NCBI GenBank assembly: GCA_026986905.1
Contig: JALSNQ010000018.1
Coordinates: 1-32,051, forward strand
Length of the DNA stretch: 32,051 nucleotides
Direction: 5' to 3'
DNA from: Thermofilaceae archaeon
Lineage (GTDB): Archaea > Thermoproteota > Thermoprotei > Thermofilales > Thermofilaceae
Every line of letters starts with the position of its first letter. The stretch's first letter is position 1. The translations under genes were made by a program, and so were the position numbers. A model generated the notes under the pieces. The model was not told the DNA's origin. It did not search any database and worked only from the letters and a program-made list of their open reading frames with translations. This document shows positions 875-9,705 of the stretch, piece after piece.

Positions 875-3004
875 CTACCACCTCTGGATCAGCGGTATTA
901 TGACCGAGTCTGTGTGGTTGAGGGGGGGCGGCACCCACACGATCCTTACCCTTAGGTTCCGGGTCGGCCTGCCTATGTCGACAATGAAGTTCGTCCCGTT
1001 CCAGGCTGCCCTGAACCACTCCTTCCACTCCTCCACGTAGAGCCAGACCTCGCCCGGGCCCCCGTTCCAGGGCTCCGGCTCGAAGTCTTTGCCTACGCGC
1101 CACACATACGGCCTGCTGAAGACTATGTAGCCCCTAGAGTCATCCCAGGCTAGGGGCTTCACGCCCCCATAGTAGAGGGTTAAGGGGGGCTCGGCTTGTA
1201 GAGGCACTGGGCCTCCAGGCGAGTAGCGCGCGTAAAGCCTTATGCTGGGCGTACTGGGCTCGAGGCGAGCCACAGCGCCCAGTGAGACAGCTATCTCAGG
1301 TACATCCCTAGGCGACTCGAAAACCGCGCTGCCCAGGCGGAGAACGTAGACTAGATGCTCCCTCACCGGGGTGCCGGGACAGCACTCGTATACGGGTCTT
1401 AGCTTGATCACGAATCCACTCCTGTTATACACCACGCCCTCAACGGGGAGAATTAGCCTAGTAACATTGTACAGTTTGCACCCTGAGTCGACACATAGCT
1501 TCACGGGGCCAATACTGAGTGGAGACTCCACGGCAAGCAGCCAGCCCCCCGAGTCCTTTGCCACAGGGAGCGTATGGACGCTAGACATGTTTACGAAAAT
1601 ATAGCCGCTTGGGCCGCGGCGTATGTCCCGCCACGTAGCATTCCGCGGAACAATTACTTTGATCGGCAGCTGAGCACTCCACAGCCCCCGTCCGCTTAGG
1701 TTAACGAGCAAGGCAGTAAATCCTCCTTTCAGGCTATGCGCCCCGGGGCCTAGGCCCACGGGTAGTAAAAGGGCGCCGGGCAGTATGGGGGACAGGTTTG
1801 CTGTAAGATACACGTACACGCTGTAGGGCTCACCCCCGTCAGTCGCGTTGGGAGTGAAGGCTACTACGGGCGGCTCTCCTGCAACTATAGTCCTGTTACC
1901 CCGCTTCACGACAACCCTGTAAGCTCTAAGGGATACCGGCTCGGCATAGTCGACCCAAACCTTCACCCATCCCGCCTGCCAGGAGTAATAGCCGACAACA
2001 TGCACGCGTATCCTCATGGTAGTGGAGTTCACCCATGTAACGTTTATCCAGCTACCACCAACACCCCTCTCCCAATGGGCTAGAAAGGGCTTGATAGGCG
2101 CCGTCCTATTGAAATGCAGATATATGTCTCCACTCCCCCTCCCGAAAACAGTAAGCCTGACCTGCCTATACGGGAAGCCACCCCTATAATCTCCACCATA
2201 GGACTTGTAGAACTCTAGGCGCCCAGAACTCCTCCTAGCAACAACCTTTTTCAGCACGTCAAAGTCTGACGCATTAAAAGACGCCGAGGAGACGCCGACA
2301 TACCAGCGAATCCGAGGCTCTCCCCTCCACGAGCTACCATTACCCATCCAGCGGACACCCCTAAACACGTAGAAGGGGAAGACGTCGGCGCCACCGGCAT
2401 CGCCAACCACATAGAACCTCGCATCAGTATAATGGCCCCGACCACCGCCTCCCTCACCGCCCCCGCCACACATACCCTGAGCGACAGAGGCGTGCTCGTA
2501 TAGGGAGGCGGCTATTGTGCAGGAGGAGGTCTCACAGTTGTAGATTATGCTCCAGGCCCAAGGGTTCACATAGGCCCTAGCCTCCCCGTTGATTATTGGA
2601 CCAAACCTCTTATCCCTGCAGAAGCTACAGCTACTCGAATTGCTTTTGCAGGAGCCTGAGAGCCCGTCAAGGGAGGCGCCGCTACTAGTAGTAGCCCCGC
2701 CTCTCCACTTCAGCTTAGTGGTGGCACTCCCATTCGTTACGCTGACAGAGACCTTCGCCCCGCCATAGACCTTGTAGTAGCCCCCAGAAGTGTCATTGAA
2801 GACCTCCGACTTCACGGCGCCATATCTAATCCACACCTGAAAGGAACCTGTATGTGGTTCATACGGCCTGATAATCTTCTTTTTAGTAGCAGACTTGCTG
2901 ACGCTTATCGGGTGAAACGGCGTCCAGGAAGAGGGTGCCGCAACGTTTACGGCTAGCATGGAGAGGACTGTTAAGAGAACGACTACTGTGAGGGGCCTCC
3001 TCAT
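875..3004 (-). CDS. large secreted cysteine- and sequon-rich surface protein (709 aa)
   Basis: I choose the ATG at 3004 because it overlaps the stop of the upstream gene as ATGA and begins a clean signal sequence (MRRPLTVVVLLTVLSMLAVN); an in-frame start at 3055 would add 17 residues lying inside the neighbour. The mature part looks all-beta, full of aromatic and alternating hydrophobic residues, with about 18 N-x-S/T sequons. Ten cysteines are visible, six of them clustered near residues 115-180, where a glycine-rich loop (CGGGGEGGGGRGHY) also sits. The even cysteine number suggests disulfides. No family is recognised and there is no C-terminal membrane helix. Its place among pilin-like genes suggests a pilus-associated adhesin or tip protein, which is inference. 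Confidence 0.7.
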   Translation of the reverse strand: MRRPLTVVVLLTVLSMLAVNVAAPSSWTPFHPISVSKSATKKKIIRPYEPHTGSFQVWIRYGAVKSEVFNDTSGGYYKVYGGAKVSVSVTNGSATTKLKWRGGATTSSGASLDGLSGSCKSNSSSCSFCRDKRFGPIINGEARAYVNPWAWSIIYNCETSSCTIAASLYEHASVAQGMCGGGGEGGGGRGHYTDARFYVVGDAGGADVFPFYVFRGVRWMGNGSSWRGEPRIRWYVGVSSASFNASDFDVLKKVVARRSSGRLEFYKSYGGDYRGGFPYRQVRLTVFGRGSGDIYLHFNRTAPIKPFLAHWERGVGGSWINVTWVNSTTMRIRVHVVGYYSWQAGWVKVWVDYAEPVSLRAYRVVVKRGNRTIVAGEPPVVAFTPNATDGGEPYSVYVYLTANLSPILPGALLLPVGLGPGAHSLKGGFTALLVNLSGRGLWSAQLPIKVIVPRNATWRDIRRGPSGYIFVNMSSVHTLPVAKDSGGWLLAVESPLSIGPVKLCVDSGCKLYNVTRLILPVEGVVYNRSGFVIKLRPVYECCPGTPVREHLVYVLRLGSAVFESPRDVPEIAVSLGAVARLEPSTPSIRLYARYSPGGPVPLQAEPPLTLYYGGVKPLAWDDSRGYIVFSRPYVWRVGKDFEPEPWNGGPGEVWLYVEEWKEWFRAAWNGTNFIVDIGRPTRNLRVRIVWVPPPLNHTDSVIIPLIQRW

Positions 3005-4503
3005 GGGGCGACACCTATTATCCTGAAGTAGGCCTCTCTGCCCCCGGTAACCCACACTCTCACCAGTAGTGTTCTCCCGCCCCTAGGCCAGGGGATAGGA
3101 GTATCCCTCGCGGCCGGGCCCGTCCCCTTTATCCCGTAGTAGTTGAAGCCGAGGCCTGGCATCATGCTGTACTCGCAGTTCTTCGGCTCAAGCATCCTGA
3201 AGGAGGGCGTCCCGTTGTAGCCCAGCTCCACGCCGTTAGCGCCGACGCCCTCGTATGGGTTGAGGAGCCCGTCCCAGGCGACCCGTATGTCCCCTGCAGG
3301 GCCCTTGCAGAGAATCTGCATCTCTGGCACTACGGGCGGCCAGCCCTCCCCGAAAAGCACGTCAATACCATCCAGTGAGGAATATGAATTGACCCATGTT
3401 CTCCACTTGGGAACCCTTATCTCCACGTAGGCAACCCTCACGCCCCTCGGCAGGAGGAATGGCACCCACAGCATGTTATTGGGAACGTCCTGTGGCACCC
3501 TAAAGACGCACGGTAACGGGTCGTAGGCGCGCACCCAGCCACCCCTTATCTCAAGCCTCTCAGCCGGTCTGCCGGGGCTATACTTGCAGCTACCGTTGAA
3601 ATAGTAGCCGGGCCATAGCGGCACCTTCGCGACGTATGGCAGGTCTCTGAGCCCCGGCAGGTATACCGCTGTTACGTTCGCCGGATGCTTCACCACCAGG
3701 GTGCTACCGTTTATCCCGGGGCTCCACCAGTACCTCCTCCCGCCCTCCTCCACCCAGTACCAGCCAAGCCACCACCTATGCGTCCCGTTTATCACGGGGC
3801 CCTCAATACTATAGTTTAGCCGCACGGGCGGCTCGTAGCATGCAGGCAACCCGGGCAACGCAACGTTAGACTTCACCGTAACTCCCCTGCACACTTTACG
3901 CCAGTAAAGCCTCACAGTAGTATTACCGCTGACAACGACCTGTACCGAAGAATTAATAGGTACAAAGCTCCACCTGCCGGCAACGAGGGGAAGAGAAGTT
4001 ATGTTTATAAAAGCTCCCCCGCGTAGGGCAACTATATCCAGGGATCCCTTATGCTTGGTTCCATTCACGAGGTACGGCGCTGAATAATTAACTATTATCG
4101 ATAGAACGTAATACATGCGTCTCGCTTCAACACTTAAGCTAGCGTTCCTATAGATCAGCACGACACCCTCTTTTGGAGCAGGCGCGTCTCCGAGGAATAC
4201 TGTGGCCACTCTATATCCAGGCTTTGCTACTACACGGTAGCGCCAATGCGATGGGCAAAGCCCTGGGCCGAGCCGCTTCAAGTAAATAGTGAAGCCCGTA
4301 CCGTTTTCCGCGTTTAAGTAGCAACGGCCACCTTCTTTTCCCGGAGAAGGGAGCTTTGCCGTATTTGAATGCTCTCCGCCACCCTTCGTCGTGTTATATT
4401 CAATAGCCGGCTTGTTTCTTTCCGTTAATAAAAGCATTGTCACCGAAGCGGCTGCGACCGTCAATATTATTAGTAAAAATGCGGCGATCAAGCGTCTACC
4501 CAT
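3001..4503 (-). CDS. secreted or N-terminally anchored surface protein (500 aa)
   Basis: The ATG at 4503 is preceded by GGTGAAGGGG, a good archaeal ribosome-binding site. The N-terminus (MGRRLIAAFLLIILTVAAASV...) is a basic head plus a hydrophobic helix that may be a signal peptide or a permanent anchor. The remainder is beta-rich, with about 14 N-x-S/T sequons and eight cysteines outside the helix. No catalytic motif or recognised domain is seen. The stop overlaps the start of the 709-residue secreted protein by 4 bases (ATGA), so the two are probably made together and may pair on the cell surface. Upstream is a tiny pilin-like gene. It could be a large minor-pilin-like subunit, since its hydrophobic helix sits at the extreme N-terminus. 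Confidence 0.7.
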   Translation of the reverse strand: MGRRLIAAFLLIILTVAAASVTMLLLTERNKPAIEYNTTKGGGEHSNTAKLPSPGKEGGRCYLNAENGTGFTIYLKRLGPGLCPSHWRYRVVAKPGYRVATVFLGDAPAPKEGVVLIYRNASLSVEARRMYYVLSIIVNYSAPYLVNGTKHKGSLDIVALRGGAFINITSLPLVAGRWSFVPINSSVQVVVSGNTTVRLYWRKVCRGVTVKSNVALPGLPACYEPPVRLNYSIEGPVINGTHRWWLGWYWVEEGGRRYWWSPGINGSTLVVKHPANVTAVYLPGLRDLPYVAKVPLWPGYYFNGSCKYSPGRPAERLEIRGGWVRAYDPLPCVFRVPQDVPNNMLWVPFLLPRGVRVAYVEIRVPKWRTWVNSYSSLDGIDVLFGEGWPPVVPEMQILCKGPAGDIRVAWDGLLNPYEGVGANGVELGYNGTPSFRMLEPKNCEYSMMPGLGFNYYGIKGTGPAARDTPIPWPRGGRTLLVRVWVTGGREAYFRIIGVAP

Positions 4504-4549
4504 GCCCCTTCACCGAGATACTATTTTTGAGTAGCATAAATGGCCGCAC

Positions 4550-4690
4550 CTACGGCGGCGTGACGAGCGCCCCATTACGGGAGATAACTAGGAGGGGAGG
4601 CATCCTATAAGCCGTTACGGCTAGAAGTAAAAGTGCTATAATAGCTGTGATTGATAAGAGGTAAATCGCCGCTGTCAACGCCTTCTCCAT
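4550..4690 (-). CDS. 46-residue pilin-like membrane protein
   Basis: A very short gene: an ATG at 4690 and a TAG at 4552-4550 enclose 46 codons. The product starts MEKALTAAIYLLSITAIIALL and is essentially one membrane helix with a tail of about 18 residues. Support comes from a GGTGA ribosome-binding site whose last three bases are the TGA of the platform-protein gene, 6 bases before the ATG, and from its position in the only gap of the operon. It resembles the N-terminal helix of a type IV pilin without the globular domain. It could be a minimal pilin, an assembly factor or a small membrane subunit. Confidence 0.6.
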   Translation of the reverse strand: MEKALTAAIYLLSITAIIALLLLAVTAYRMPPLLVISRNGALVTPP

Positions 4691-4696
4691 GGCCGT

Positions 4697-5833
4697 TCAC
4701 CTTGGCGCGAGTAGTGGGCCTAGGACTAGGCCGGCGTATGTCGCGAGCAGCATTACGGGCAGGTATAGTGGGAAGTATAGGGGGTTCCCCTCGCGCATGC
4801 TCGCCGTCGCCACGCTGTAGGACAGGGAGTTTACTGCCAGCACGAGGTCGAGGTAGGGCTTCACGCGCGCAAACGAGACGGGCGAGATGCTCAGCCCGGC
4901 CACGCTCACCGCCGGGAGAGAGGAGAAAACGCTCGACACCATGGAGAGCCCCAGGGCAAGCACGGACACCCCCACTATCCCGTTGAGCAGGGAGAGCATG
5001 GTTCGGGCCCTGACATCGCCGAGCAGGCGCCTATAAGACTCGAAGTACTCCACAAGCCAGCGGAGCCCCTCCTCGTCTCTCCCGAAGCGGCCGTAGAGCA
5101 TGAGGATCTCCCTCAGCACCCTGCTCACACGGAGCCGCACCGGCTCCTCGAAGGCGTCTAGGCCCAGGCACCTGAATATATGGAAGGGGCAGCGGAGCGC
5201 CTCTACCAGCAGCCTCCTGTCCCCTTCAAGCTCGCCTAGAATCTCCCTCGCCTCCCTATACGTCAACGCCGCGGAGGGCGCAGAGGCGGCGACGACTAGG
5301 AGGAACACCTCTTCGCCGACGCGTATCAGACCTCCAGCCTCTAAGAGGAGGGGCACAGCCATGAGGGAGAGAGCCGCCAGCGCCCGCCTCCCAGGTGGCG
5401 GGAAACGCAGCTCTACGGGGATCTTAGCGTAGGCCGCGGCTCCAACTAGGCCCCCGATGGCCGAGAAGGCGACGAGAAGGGGCGCAGCCTTGCCGGGGCT
5501 AACCATGAACACGAGCCCCACAACTATTAGGGGGAGCGAAACCGTGAAGAGCATCATCAGCTCCCCAAGCTGCTGTATGAGCTCCTCCGTCGTCTCAACC
5601 CTGACCCTGAGCTCCGAGAGTTTGTTCTCGATGTAGTTGCGTAGCCCCTCCCTTGTGCCGCTTAGCTCGTCGCGCCTAGCTATCTCGAGTATCCCGTCGC
5701 CCCCTCCGATGTCGGAGGACTTTTCTAGGCGCTTGAGCGTCGCTGAGGGGGGCAGTGGGCTGCTATATAGGATTATGGCAAGGTCGAGGCTGGAAAAAAC
5801 GGTTTTTTCGCCGGGTCGCCCGTTGAGAGGCAT
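4697..5833 (-). CDS. polytopic membrane protein, candidate GspF/TadC/FlaJ-like pilus platform
   Basis: A 378-residue protein with a soluble head of about 90 residues, then several hydrophobic segments (roughly 92-111, 116-136, 150-170, 174-195), a cytoplasmic charged helical stretch near 200-272, and further helices near 275-300 and 350-376. This order, soluble helical domain then membrane helices repeated twice, is that of the type II secretion F / TadC / FlaJ family, the inner-membrane platform that works with an assembly ATPase. The pilin gene lies 4 bases upstream and more pilin-like genes follow. I see no signature that proves the family, and no matching ATPase gene lies within the window; it could be beyond the left edge. 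The ATG at 5833 has only a weak ribosome-binding site. Confidence 0.55.
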   Translation of the reverse strand: MPLNGRPGEKTVFSSLDLAIILYSSPLPPSATLKRLEKSSDIGGGDGILEIARRDELSGTREGLRNYIENKLSELRVRVETTEELIQQLGELMMLFTVSLPLIVVGLVFMVSPGKAAPLLVAFSAIGGLVGAAAYAKIPVELRFPPPGRRALAALSLMAVPLLLEAGGLIRVGEEVFLLVVAASAPSAALTYREAREILGELEGDRRLLVEALRCPFHIFRCLGLDAFEEPVRLRVSRVLREILMLYGRFGRDEEGLRWLVEYFESYRRLLGDVRARTMLSLLNGIVGVSVLALGLSMVSSVFSSLPAVSVAGLSISPVSFARVKPYLDLVLAVNSLSYSVATASMREGNPLYFPLYLPVMLLATYAGLVLGPLLAPR

Positions 5834-5837
5834 GGCG

Positions 5838-6203
5838 TTACACTTTCGTGTAGGCTAGGGCTATTTCTCCGCTCGGCGTGCGTACTATTATCTGGCTGGG
5901 GGGCTGAGTTGTGAAGGTGGCAGTGCACTGGAGCAGCTGCCCAGACGCGGTGCAGCTAGTCGAGGAAGCGCCGACCACAGTTATGTTGCCCGGGCCCACG
6001 GCAGCGGTTCCCACGTTCTTGAGGGTAAAGTACAGCTTCCCGCTGCCGCTGTCATACGTGGGCGTACCCACGACGACCAGCATGGGACTACTTGTAACAC
6101 TCCTCGTAGCACTCATCACGAACCACACTACAAGCCCCGCAGCAGCGACAAGCCCTATGGTGAGCAACGCGGCAGTAATACTAAACGCGCCCCTACGCCT
6201 CAA
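5838..6203 (-). CDS. type IV pilin-like protein, probable major pilin
   Basis: A 121-residue protein with a textbook archaeal pilin N-terminus: a basic head MRRRG followed by AFSITAALLTIGLVAAAGLVVWFVM, so a class III signal peptidase (PibD/EppA type) could cut after Gly5. After the helix comes a small beta-sandwich-like domain of alternating hydrophobic residues with a conserved-looking NVGTAAV turn, one NIT sequon and two cysteines. The start is a TTG at 6203; no in-frame ATG or GTG occurs before the upstream stop at 6239-6237, and a TATA-like box 30-40 bases upstream puts the transcript start close by. First gene of the minus-strand pilus operon. Bacterial-type Glu5 is absent, as in many archaeal pilins. 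Confidence 0.7.
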   Translation of the reverse strand: MRRRGAFSITAALLTIGLVAAAGLVVWFVMSATRSVTSSPMLVVVGTPTYDSGSGKLYFTLKNVGTAAVGPGNITVVGASSTSCTASGQLLQCTATFTTQPPSQIIVRTPSGEIALAYTKV

Positions 6204-6299: not shown

Positions 6300-7484
6300 A
6301 TGCTATCTACTGCTGTCGTTCTGGCCGGCGGAAAAGGCACGAGGCTTAGGCCTTTAACATTAACAATGCCGAAACCCCTCGTGCCTATAGGCAACGTGCC
6401 TATACTTGACCATATCCTGACCCTGCTTAGAATAAACGGGTTAAAGAAAGTAGTTATAGCAGTAAATTATCTCGGCGAAATGATTAGGAGACATATAATT
6501 GAAAAATACGATAGTTATGGAATGGAAATAATAATACCCCGCATAACTCCACTCGACACAGCTGACGCTGTCAGAAAATGCCGTGACTTCATCGACGGCG
6601 ACTTCTTAGTCGTCATGGGAGACGTACTCACAAATATGAACCTACGCGAGTTCGCCGAGTTTCACGAAAAGAAGGGGGGAATAGCCACAATAGCTCTCAT
6701 CGAGGTGCAGTCTCTTCTAGACTTCGGAGCAGTAATAATGGGGTCAGAGAACAAAATCATGCACTTCATAGAAAAACCAAGTACACCTGAGATTTACCTC
6801 GTAAGCCTAGCCTACACGAGGATACCCGGGAACCTCACCAAGCTCTACTCAAACCTCGCCAACACGGGTTTTTACGCACTCAGCTACAGGATCCTAGACA
6901 TCCTGGACGAAAACCCGTACCTAATGGACTGGGGGCGCCACGTGTTCCCCTGGCTACTCGAAAACAATTATACCATCTACGGGTGGGACGCGGGCGATAC
7001 ATACTGGGCGGATGTGGGGAGGCCTAGAAATTACCTTACCGCAAACTTCGACTTACTCGAAGGTAAGGTCAAGCCACTCATGCCAAAAGGAAATAACACC
7101 ATGCCCGGCGTATACATAGGCAACAACGTGGAAATAAGCACAAGGGCCTCCATAAGGCCTCCAGTAGCCCTCGGCGACAACGTTAAAATAGGAGAAAACT
7201 CCTCGATAGGCCCCTATACTGTTCTCGGCGACAATGTCAGCGTGGGCAGCAACGCAACAGTGGAAAGAAGTGTAATAATGAATAACACAAAGATAGAGGA
7301 CAACGTGAAGGTTACTTATAGTGTTTTAGCAAAAAATATTTTAGTTATGCAAAATGCTGTGATAAAAGGATTCTCTGTGATAGGAGAGGGGGTCGTTGTG
7401 AAGAGCAACCATACAGTGCAGCCGAACACCGTGCTCGAACCCGAGCTCAGACTTGTAGAAAAGGTGATACGCCATGGCCCATAG
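6300..7484 (+). CDS. sugar-1-phosphate nucleotidyltransferase with left-handed beta-helix domain
   Basis: Transfers an NMP from an NTP to a sugar 1-phosphate to make an NDP-sugar, most like the GDP-mannose or UDP/dTDP-glucose pyrophosphorylase group; base and sugar cannot be fixed from sequence. The Rossmann-like catalytic domain has the signature GGKGTRLRPLT (10-20), PKPLVPI (24-30), metal-binding Asp108 in VMGD, EKP (158-160), NTGFYAL (188-194) and WADVG (236-240). The usual LGTA loop reads LDTA (85-88). From about 271 the protein has hexapeptide repeats typical of a left-handed beta-helix. All main catalytic elements look intact. The gene overlaps the next by 11 bases, so the two products are probably made in step. 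It may supply activated sugar for surface glycans. Confidence 0.85.
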   Translation: MLSTAVVLAGGKGTRLRPLTLTMPKPLVPIGNVPILDHILTLLRINGLKKVVIAVNYLGEMIRRHIIEKYDSYGMEIIIPRITPLDTADAVRKCRDFIDGDFLVVMGDVLTNMNLREFAEFHEKKGGIATIALIEVQSLLDFGAVIMGSENKIMHFIEKPSTPEIYLVSLAYTRIPGNLTKLYSNLANTGFYALSYRILDILDENPYLMDWGRHVFPWLLENNYTIYGWDAGDTYWADVGRPRNYLTANFDLLEGKVKPLMPKGNNTMPGVYIGNNVEISTRASIRPPVALGDNVKIGENSSIGPYTVLGDNVSVGSNATVERSVIMNNTKIEDNVKVTYSVLAKNILVMQNAVIKGFSVIGEGVVVKSNHTVQPNTVLEPELRLVEKVIRHGP

Positions 7485-8832
7485 GTCACTGCCAATATAC
7501 CATAACAGGATATACGGGGTGGCGAATTCCCAGCTTACACCCGAAATAACCGCGGAACTCGGAGCCGCGCTCGGCACGATGCTAGGCGAAGGCTCCCTAG
7601 TCGTCACCGCGAGGGATCTCTACCCTCCCTCGCGAATGCTTAAAAGATCTTTTTCCGCAGGCCTTATGTCGACGGGCATATCAGTCATAGACTTCCACGA
7701 CGCAACCCTACCGGAGCTCTCCTTCGCCATAAAGCGTTTCGGAGCCAAAGCTGGCATACACTTCTCGGTGGCCCCCCATAGAAACGACAGTGTCCAGATA
7801 AAAATACTCGACTCAAACGGTATAGAGATAAGCTATGACAAGCTGAACGACATACTCATGCTTTATGAGACAAAGCACATCGTGAGGACGATTCCTCCAC
7901 GCATAGGGTGGGTCTCCTACGCCGAGTATATACACGACATCTACACGGCCTCACTCTCAAGCTTCCTAGACACAGCCCCGATAAACGCCGCCAGGCCCCA
8001 AGTAGCGGTCGACGTAAATTTCGGCCCGGCGACGGACGTACTACCCATGTTGTTCAGCGAGATAGGCGCTAGGTTCATACTGATAAACTCCCATAAACCC
8101 TCGCCTAGAAACCCGCCTAGGCAGCTACCCTCAAGGGAGTCCTTGAAGATGCTCTCCAACATCGTAGAGGCATCAGACTCTCTCTTCGCAGCAGCACTAT
8201 CCTCGGACGCCTCCCAGGTATTCATTGTCGACGACAAGGGGCGTATAATCGACCCCGACTTAATGATAGGAGTCTTCGCGATGATGCTGCCGAGAGGCGC
8301 GAAGCTCGCCGTCAGCGAGTCTACCTCCCGGATAGTAGATAAAATAGCGGAGGTACAGAAGATCACTCTCCTAAGGGTAAAGGGGATGATAGGCGACGTC
8401 GCCAGGGCTGTACGGAGACTCAAAGCCACCCTCGGCGCCACCGACGCGGGCGAGTTCATTTTCTCACAGTTCACCTTTTCCTCGGACGGCATACTATCTA
8501 TAGGAAAGCTCATCGAGACGCTCACGATCGAGGATATACGGCTTTCAACAATAGTTGACTCCCTCCCAAGCCTACCGACATTTCACCTAGAAATAGACAT
8601 AGACGATAAGCGGTACTCGTCCCTTATAGACTACATATACTCCAACCACCCGGAGATCGTGCTTACGCCTCTCCATGTAAAGTACAAGGTTGGGGACACG
8701 TGGATTAAGCTGGGCTACGACGAAGAAAACGGTAAGCTCAGAGTGGAGACAGAGGACACGTCGAAGGAGGGGAGAGAAACAGTAAAGAGGGTTGTGGACG
8801 AGCTTGAGGAACTAACCCAGACATTCATATAA
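7474..8832 (+). CDS. phosphohexomutase-fold protein with degenerate active site (probable pseudoenzyme)
   Basis: The 452-residue chain follows phosphomannomutase/phosphoglucomutase (alpha-D-phosphohexomutase) from end to end: RIYGVANSQLTPE (12-24) matches GIRGVVNxxLTPE, ARDLYPPSRMLKR (46-58) matches GRDTRxSSxxLKx, and DDKGRIIDPD (253-262) follows the metal loop. The catalytic motifs are lost. In a gap-free match, TASHNP reads SVAPHR (98-103), putting Ala100 at the phosphoserine site. The metal loop DGDADR reads SSDASQ (243-248). The sugar loop GGExSGH reads GATDAGE (321-327). The C-terminal RxSGTEP loop is not recognisable. The ATG at 7474 has a strong site (AAGGTGAT) and overlaps the nucleotidyltransferase by 11 bases. 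It is probably a regulatory or scaffolding partner of that enzyme, not a mutase. Confidence 0.8.
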   Translation: MAHRSLPIYHNRIYGVANSQLTPEITAELGAALGTMLGEGSLVVTARDLYPPSRMLKRSFSAGLMSTGISVIDFHDATLPELSFAIKRFGAKAGIHFSVAPHRNDSVQIKILDSNGIEISYDKLNDILMLYETKHIVRTIPPRIGWVSYAEYIHDIYTASLSSFLDTAPINAARPQVAVDVNFGPATDVLPMLFSEIGARFILINSHKPSPRNPPRQLPSRESLKMLSNIVEASDSLFAAALSSDASQVFIVDDKGRIIDPDLMIGVFAMMLPRGAKLAVSESTSRIVDKIAEVQKITLLRVKGMIGDVARAVRRLKATLGATDAGEFIFSQFTFSSDGILSIGKLIETLTIEDIRLSTIVDSLPSLPTFHLEIDIDDKRYSSLIDYIYSNHPEIVLTPLHVKYKVGDTWIKLGYDEENGKLRVETEDTSKEGRETVKRVVDELEELTQTFI

Positions 8833-8853: not shown

Positions 8854-9705
8854 GTGGCCGTGGAAATAGAGTTTAACGAAAAAAGGGCAGAAGAAGTAGG
8901 CTTAAGGCTCGGCTCCCATCCAGGGCTCCCACAAATCTTTATGGAGGCAGACCCCCAGTACCAGGCTGTAAAGGACATCCTAGAAAATCTCGGGCTCGTC
9001 GAGGGAATGCTTTACGTTGTAGGAATAGCCCTTATAAGCTACATGCTGACCACGCGCGGCGAAGAGCACTGGAGGACAGCGGCGAGATACTCTAAACTAG
9101 GGTTTCCACGGGGACTCATAGAGTTCGTAGAGAAGTCTAACAGCACTGCCCTCTATAGGAGGGCTAAGAGGAAGAGACTAGAAAAATATCTCAAACACGC
9201 CTCACCGTCTCTGAAGCCTCTCATCGAAAAAAAGGCTAACCCCGATGCCATAGTTAAAAGGCTTTCTTCACTTCTCGACGCGCGCGGCGAGTCGAAGACG
9301 ATCACATTTGCGGCAAAGATGGCATACTATGTCTACAGCGCAGCCAGCATACGCGTAGAGCCCCCCTCTACACCCATGCCGGTAGACTACCGTGTATGCC
9401 TAGTAACGGTTACCTCGGGCATTGCTAGAACCGGGATCCCTCCGAGAAAGGCGGCGCGTATACTTAGATCATCCTATACCCGGAGAGTAAGAGAGACTTG
9501 GAGCAGGGTGTCTTCATCCGCGCGAATAAAACCGGTACTACTCGACAATATAGTCTGGCTCGCCGGGAGGTGTATTGATGAAAACCTCGACGATCCCGGG
9601 GGCATATCTGCGTGCCTACAGCGCAGGGTGCCGTCCTCCAAGAGATACCTGGACGCCCTCAGGGAGCTGTGGCTAGCCCTCACGCGGCCTCCTATAAAAG
9701 ACTAG
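8854..9705 (+). CDS. AGOG-type 8-oxoguanine DNA glycosylase / AP lyase
   Basis: A helix-hairpin-helix superfamily base-excision-repair enzyme that removes 8-oxoguanine and cuts the abasic strand; this archaeal branch (AGOG) is typical of hyperthermophiles. The 283-residue length fits, the chain is all-helical, and the segment SKTITFAAKMAYYVYSA (147-163) matches the family's catalytic-lysine helix, making Lys148 the likely Schiff-base nucleophile and Asp178 in VDYR the likely activating aspartate. The GTG at 8854 is chosen for its distance from the TATA box; another GTG lies two codons downstream at 8860. The 3' end overlaps the convergent GTPase gene by 33 bases. Identification is from remembered family motifs. 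Confidence 0.8.
   Translation: MAVEIEFNEKRAEEVGLRLGSHPGLPQIFMEADPQYQAVKDILENLGLVEGMLYVVGIALISYMLTTRGEEHWRTAARYSKLGFPRGLIEFVEKSNSTALYRRAKRKRLEKYLKHASPSLKPLIEKKANPDAIVKRLSSLLDARGESKTITFAAKMAYYVYSAASIRVEPPSTPMPVDYRVCLVTVTSGIARTGIPPRKAARILRSSYTRRVRETWSRVSSSARIKPVLLDNIVWLAGRCIDENLDDPGGISACLQRRVPSSKRYLDALRELWLALTRPPIKD

Follow-up and report, generated by a model that had tools for sequence, protein, structure and literature searches.

The 32,051-nucleotide stretch of Thermofilaceae DNA analyzed here (the window) encodes a 452-residue protein of the phosphohexomutase fold (positions 7474-8832, forward strand) that, judged by its sequence, is a conserved pseudoenzyme, and the gene lies directly behind that of a sugar-1-phosphate nucleotidyltransferase (NTase). 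From their relationships, the two genes can be recognized as the split representatives of a wider family that combines an NTase with a pseudomutase and in which these two parts are otherwise joined in one polypeptide. The catalytic set of mutases, i.e., the phosphoserine, three metal-binding aspartates, the arginine of the IRG motif, and the phosphate-loop arginine, is kept by all 17 active mutases that we compared and by none of 28 NTase-associated mutase domains, split or fused. At a probability of roughly 60%, we propose that this pseudomutase corresponds to the C-terminal domain of the fused relatives, here encoded on its own and acting in trans, and most likely serves the NTase as a non-catalytic, structural or allosteric subunit.

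An overlapping pair of nucleotidyltransferase and mutase-fold genes

The NTase gene (6300-7484, forward strand; 394 residues) and the uninterrupted reading frame of the pseudomutase overlap by 11 bases (7474-7484, forward strand), and overlaps of 4-11 bases are found in most orthologues. Inside the 3' end of the NTase gene and 5 bases ahead of the pseudomutase ATG lies the Shine-Dalgarno-like AAGGTGAT (7461-7468, forward strand), which agrees with the sequence expected for archaea; about 10 of 12 orthologues have GGTGA or something close to it. The NTase is of the LbH type, with Pfam matches to NTP_transferase (1e-43), LbH_EIF2B, and Hexapep, and its nearest solved relatives are a UTP-glucose-1-phosphate uridylyltransferase (8x7s) and GDP-mannose pyrophosphorylases. 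By motif it is predicted to be catalytically intact, with GGxGxRLRPxTxxxPKP, GD108, EKP158-160, N188/G190/Y192, and W236/D238 invariant across split and fused relatives. An earlier, sequence-only reading of the window had already described an intact pseudomutase frame, an intact NTase, the 11-base overlap, and the ribosome-binding site, all of which are confirmed in the sequence. As a separate observation, the stretch from EKP to NxGxY is longer by ca. 17 residues in split-form NTases, which also have DTAD(A/S)V where fused forms have GTxG; both differences may matter for the choice of substrate or for contact with a partner.

The fold of the pseudomutase was assigned from Pfam matches, alignments, and a structure match. 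The Pfam models PGM_PMM_I, II, and III (PF02878, PF02879, and PF02880) match above their cut-offs and in this order, followed by a domain IV for which the corresponding Pfam model (PF00408) gave no match. NCBIfam equivalogs for GlmM score below their curated cut-offs (TIGR03990 with 188 versus 439 bits; TIGR01455 with 119 versus 448 bits). Residues 13-381 align with few gaps to archaeal PGM/PMM and GlmM structures, among which the PGM/PMM of Thermococcus and Pyrococcus are the nearest solved relatives. With an AlphaFold2 model as the query, the best Foldseek match was the PGM of T. kodakarensis (448 columns, E 1e-30); this model, built from a four-row alignment (pLDDT 66.7, pTM 0.59) and unsure in its domain orientation, is good enough to identify the fold and too weak to place the new motifs described below on an interface.

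Loss of the catalytic set

We compared the active site of the window protein with those of 17 mutases whose catalytic set is complete, most of them from Thermofilales or other Thermoproteota, and with 15 split orthologues. Its phosphoserine loop reads SVAP for TxSH, within HFSVAPHR (residues 96-103; 7759-7782, forward strand), so that Ala100 stands at the serine and Pro101 at the histidine position. The metal loop DGDxDR is degenerate as SSDASQ (residues 243-248; 8200-8217, forward strand), where D245 is the sole aspartate kept, and the sugar loop GxExSGH as GATDAGE (residues 321-327; 8434-8454, forward strand). A tyrosine occupies the position of the IRG arginine, and the RxSGTEP phosphate loop is absent. 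All 15 split orthologues have lost the histidine of the phosphoserine loop, the first and third metal aspartates, the IRG arginine, the sugar-loop glutamate, and the phosphate-loop threonine, and D245 is invariant. The phosphoserine-column serine is still there in 8 of 15, the arginine and serine letters of the phosphate loop are present in 2 of 15, and the lysine at the NGxK position is kept in about two thirds of the split rows. The full catalytic set is restored in none of the 15 rows.

The degenerate loops were thus found as the earlier reading had given them (Ala100, SSDASQ, GATDAGE, and a missing RxSGTEP). Its verdict that all catalytic motifs are lost holds for the catalytic set but goes too far at the metal loop with its one surviving, invariant aspartate. 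The check that it suggested, whether the substitutions are shared by orthologues adjoining the same NTase, comes out positive for the loss of the catalytic set but not for the exchange of serine for alanine, which is no family trait given the eight orthologues with a serine. An alternative alignment giving back a catalytic serine was also considered and rejected: the nearest candidate, Ser98, varies among S, T, and A from one orthologue to another, and the remainder of the site has been lost.

New, nearly invariant segments of the split pseudomutases include ARDxYPPSRMxKR and IGWVTYAEYIHDIY. In the window protein, the conserved new motifs are ARDLYPPSRMLKR (residues 46-58; 7609-7647, forward strand), with an SRMxKR that is common to most fused relatives and different in active mutases, and IGWVSYAEYIHDIY (residues 144-157; 7903-7944, forward strand), which is confined to the split form. 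New invariant polar residues are R47, D48, S53, R54, K57, R58, Y149, E151, Y152, and H154. NG86 estimates of dN/dS against the same congener come to 0.06 for the pseudomutase and to 0.13 for the NTase and are approximate because dS is about 1.3. The pseudomutase is under purifying selection, and conservation of this strength excludes chance or decay; together with the breadth of orthologues, it supports the earlier view that this is not a decaying gene.

Strict pairing across the Thermofilales

Pseudomutase orthologues were found in 18 of 27 Thermofilales genomes. Adjacency can be tested in 16 of them (the contig ends in the other two, G011 and G018), and in 15 of these 16 the NTase orthologue lies directly upstream; conversely, a pseudomutase stands behind all 15 full-length strong NTase orthologues. 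This adjacency and the gene overlap bear out the claim that the pseudomutase is genetically tied to the NTase. The two are separate genes in all Thermofilales that have the pair. Other neighbors differ between genera and therefore give no functional clue, leaving the pair as the only unit conserved across the order. An AGOG-type N-glycosylase/DNA lyase gene (8854-9705, forward strand) follows 21 bases after the pseudomutase in the window, an order shared with one other genus only.

The exception is genome G016 (L108:7222-8850), in which the pseudomutase is apparently intact, the upstream NTase is missing, and the outer neighbors are as in related genomes. This is the main observation against an obligate partnership. 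The absence may be an assembly fault because a 10-N scaffold gap lies inside the pseudomutase gene, and it reflects either real loss or misassembly.

Fused relatives and shared ancestry

The sequence-only reading had considered a mutase-fold pseudoenzyme serving an NDP-sugar synthase to be, as far as its author knew, a new arrangement; the novelty is not supported, since the same pair exists as one fused polypeptide in other Thermoproteota, Actinomycetota, and Campylobacterota. When the class and phylum were searched with a profile, NTase-LbH-mutase single reading frames of ca. 830-865 residues were recovered from at least 10 other Thermoproteota genomes, belonging to three other families of the class and to further Thermoproteota. 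The same architecture was found by tblastn on plasmid records in Nonomuraea and Streptomyces (Actinomycetota) and in Sulfuricurvum (Campylobacterota). These bacterial fusions number four and, if they carry an annotation, it is that of a sugar phosphate nucleotidyltransferase; all stem from plasmid-collection records that undersample the bacterial range. None of the 13 fusions keeps the catalytic set in its mutase domain. Catalytic loss among NTase-associated mutase domains is graded: serine persists in some split orthologues (see above), certain archaeal fusions have lost the serine loop and still have a metal loop of the form DEDADR or DADADR (L054, L055, and L082), and in another fusion (L061) the loss is wholesale.

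In a mutase tree computed without the catalytic loops, support is 100/100 for the split form, 91/84 for the fused form, and 83/95 for the two together against active mutases, a moderately supported join with a long stem (1.2). Independently, the NTase tree recovers the split form at 97/97 and the fused form at 98/99; the two are separated with 100/99 from 10 of 11 other NTases, and the position of one long NTase row is unsure. Moreover, the two genes are divided where the fusions have their LbH/mutase linker. The Thermofilales pair thus shares its ancestry with the fusions, having the same NTase clade and a related degenerate mutase domain, in two polypeptides rather than one. Because split and fused forms group in both trees and the boundary falls at the linker, the association of NTase and mutase is most likely older than the difference between the two forms.

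Relation to known systems

The CDD group cd05805, which we take to be MPG1_transferase, would have the same fused NTase-LbH-mutase make-up and is presumably linked to this family. One study left this group out of consideration as enzymes acting on other sugars (PMC9426568). In 2018, SCO1388, a fusion from Streptomyces, was reported to appear bifunctional, though its disruption alone did not cause the phage resistance that served as that paper's sign of lost GDP-mannose pyrophosphorylase activity (PMC5982138). The Streptomyces fusions compared here are plasmid homologues and do not include SCO1388 itself. With SCO1388-type fusions, the Thermofilales pair shares the domain order, the NTase clade, a mutase domain without the catalytic set, and, for most of them, SRMxKR; unlike these single polypeptides, it consists of two overlapping genes. 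In the open-licence literature, we found no paper on inactive mutase domains fused to NTases. Within the literature searched, it appears unrecognized that the mutase half is degenerate in all fusions compared and that in Thermofilales a gene of its own encodes it.

GlmM is an active mutase. Its complex with CdaA (structures 7ojs, 7olh, and 9g69) is a likeness in that a mutase fold acts as protein partner of another enzyme, but this partner is a c-di-AMP cyclase unrelated to the NTase. The vertebrate inactive phosphoglucomutase PGM5 (aciculin) is likewise a phosphohexomutase-fold protein and has no measurable activity (PMC7761743). However, the active site of PGM5 is conserved, glucose-1-phosphate is bound, and the role of the protein in muscle is structural, whereas the loops of the pseudomutase are largely lost and its candidate partner is an NTase. 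The non-catalytic paralogue GMPPA binds the sugar nucleotide of its pathway and controls the LbH NTase GMPPB (PMC11228364). If the subunit model is right, the Thermofilales pair would similarly combine an LbH NTase with a non-catalytic candidate partner, but GMPPA is a dead NTase while the partner here would be a dead mutase, i.e., an enzyme type from one step upstream in the pathway.

Proposed role and alternatives

A subunit of the NTase is the simplest reading of the pseudomutase because the pair is the sole conserved unit and because the same domain is covalently joined to the same NTase elsewhere. The same genome encodes a separate intact mutase (L001), which would carry out sugar-phosphate interconversion with no contribution from the pseudomutase. 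The latter would bind the co-translated NTase, probably via the left-handed beta-helix that forms the covalent joint in fused relatives. In the version that we favor, by analogy to GMPPA/GMPPB, the old mutase cleft would sense a sugar phosphate or nucleotide sugar and tune the NTase accordingly. The physical complex, the sensing of a ligand, the direction of regulation, and the substrate of the NTase are all what we infer.

Within this subunit model, the strongest alternative to a sensor is a purely structural subunit that stabilizes or oligomerizes the NTase, e.g., at high temperature, and senses no ligand. The thermophilic lineage would fit such a role, and so would the variation of cleft residues among orthologues beside nearly invariant segments at residues 46-58 and 144-157, yet we consider it less likely than not. 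The same domain is found in Streptomyces, Nonomuraea, and Sulfuricurvum, which are non-thermophiles, so that stability at high temperature is not by itself an explanation of the family. Leaving the subunit model, the pseudomutase may have been repurposed for another reaction or partner (as a hydrolase, a sugar-binding carrier, or the partner of a glycosyltransferase) and share no more than an operon with the NTase. The new invariant polar residues, the invariant D245, and the G016 pseudomutase without an NTase are what one might expect in this case, but in both bacteria and archaea the domain is covalently fused to this same NTase clade, and no other neighbor gene is conserved across the order, which makes repurposing improbable.

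More remote is a sluggish mutase that uses another serine or a different phosphoryl chemistry, for which the serine in 8 of 15 orthologues and the frequent NGxK lysine could be invoked. We give it very little credence, given the alanine at the serine column of the window protein, the variability of neighboring Ser98, the loss of the metal, sugar, and phosphate loops together with the IRG arginine, and the complete mutase elsewhere in the genome. Finally, the source genome is a metagenome-assembled genome (MAG) that is 57% complete, which would leave room for a decaying paralogue or an assembly artefact. This explanation is refuted by an orthologue with 87% identity from another MAG of this genus, orthologues in the single-contig genomes G020, G023, and G026, and the low dN/dS, and we assign it practically no weight.

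More generally, the mutase half looks dead in every case compared, and this matters more than the Thermofilales gene alone. It suggests a fused family, one member of which has been called bifunctional, with only one working active site, and pathway reconstructions that count the apparently dead mutase half would be wrong. More tentatively, and at somewhat less than even odds, the whole NTase family, fused or split, may be controlled by a dead mutase-fold sugar-phosphate sensor that is a copy of the preceding pathway enzyme. If this is true, the proteins described as bifunctional mutase/pyrophosphorylases would be monofunctional NTases under allosteric control, and regulator and enzyme could be taken apart in the Thermofilales pair. 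The naturally split genes of Thermofilales offer a clean system for asking whether a dead enzyme of the preceding step acts as regulatory subunit of a sugar-nucleotide synthase.

Other observations

Upstream of the pair, four successive reading frames on the reverse strand of the window (875-6203) have no Pfam match. The one at 5838-6203 (reverse strand) has a pilin-like hydrophobic N-terminus and that at 4697-5833 (reverse strand) many hydrophobic stretches; this region may be a divergent operon of the type IV pilus or archaellum-like kind.

Two other Thermofilales loci (L123:462-3398, reverse strand, in G006, and L124:2284-5208, forward strand, in G005) encode an otherwise catalytically intact phosphohexomutase with an intein of ca. 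540 residues that matches Pfam Intein_splicing (2e-17) and LAGLIDADG_3 and has a helix-turn-helix. Its insertion point is precisely the phosphoserine loop, which would make the catalytic serine the +1 residue after splicing.
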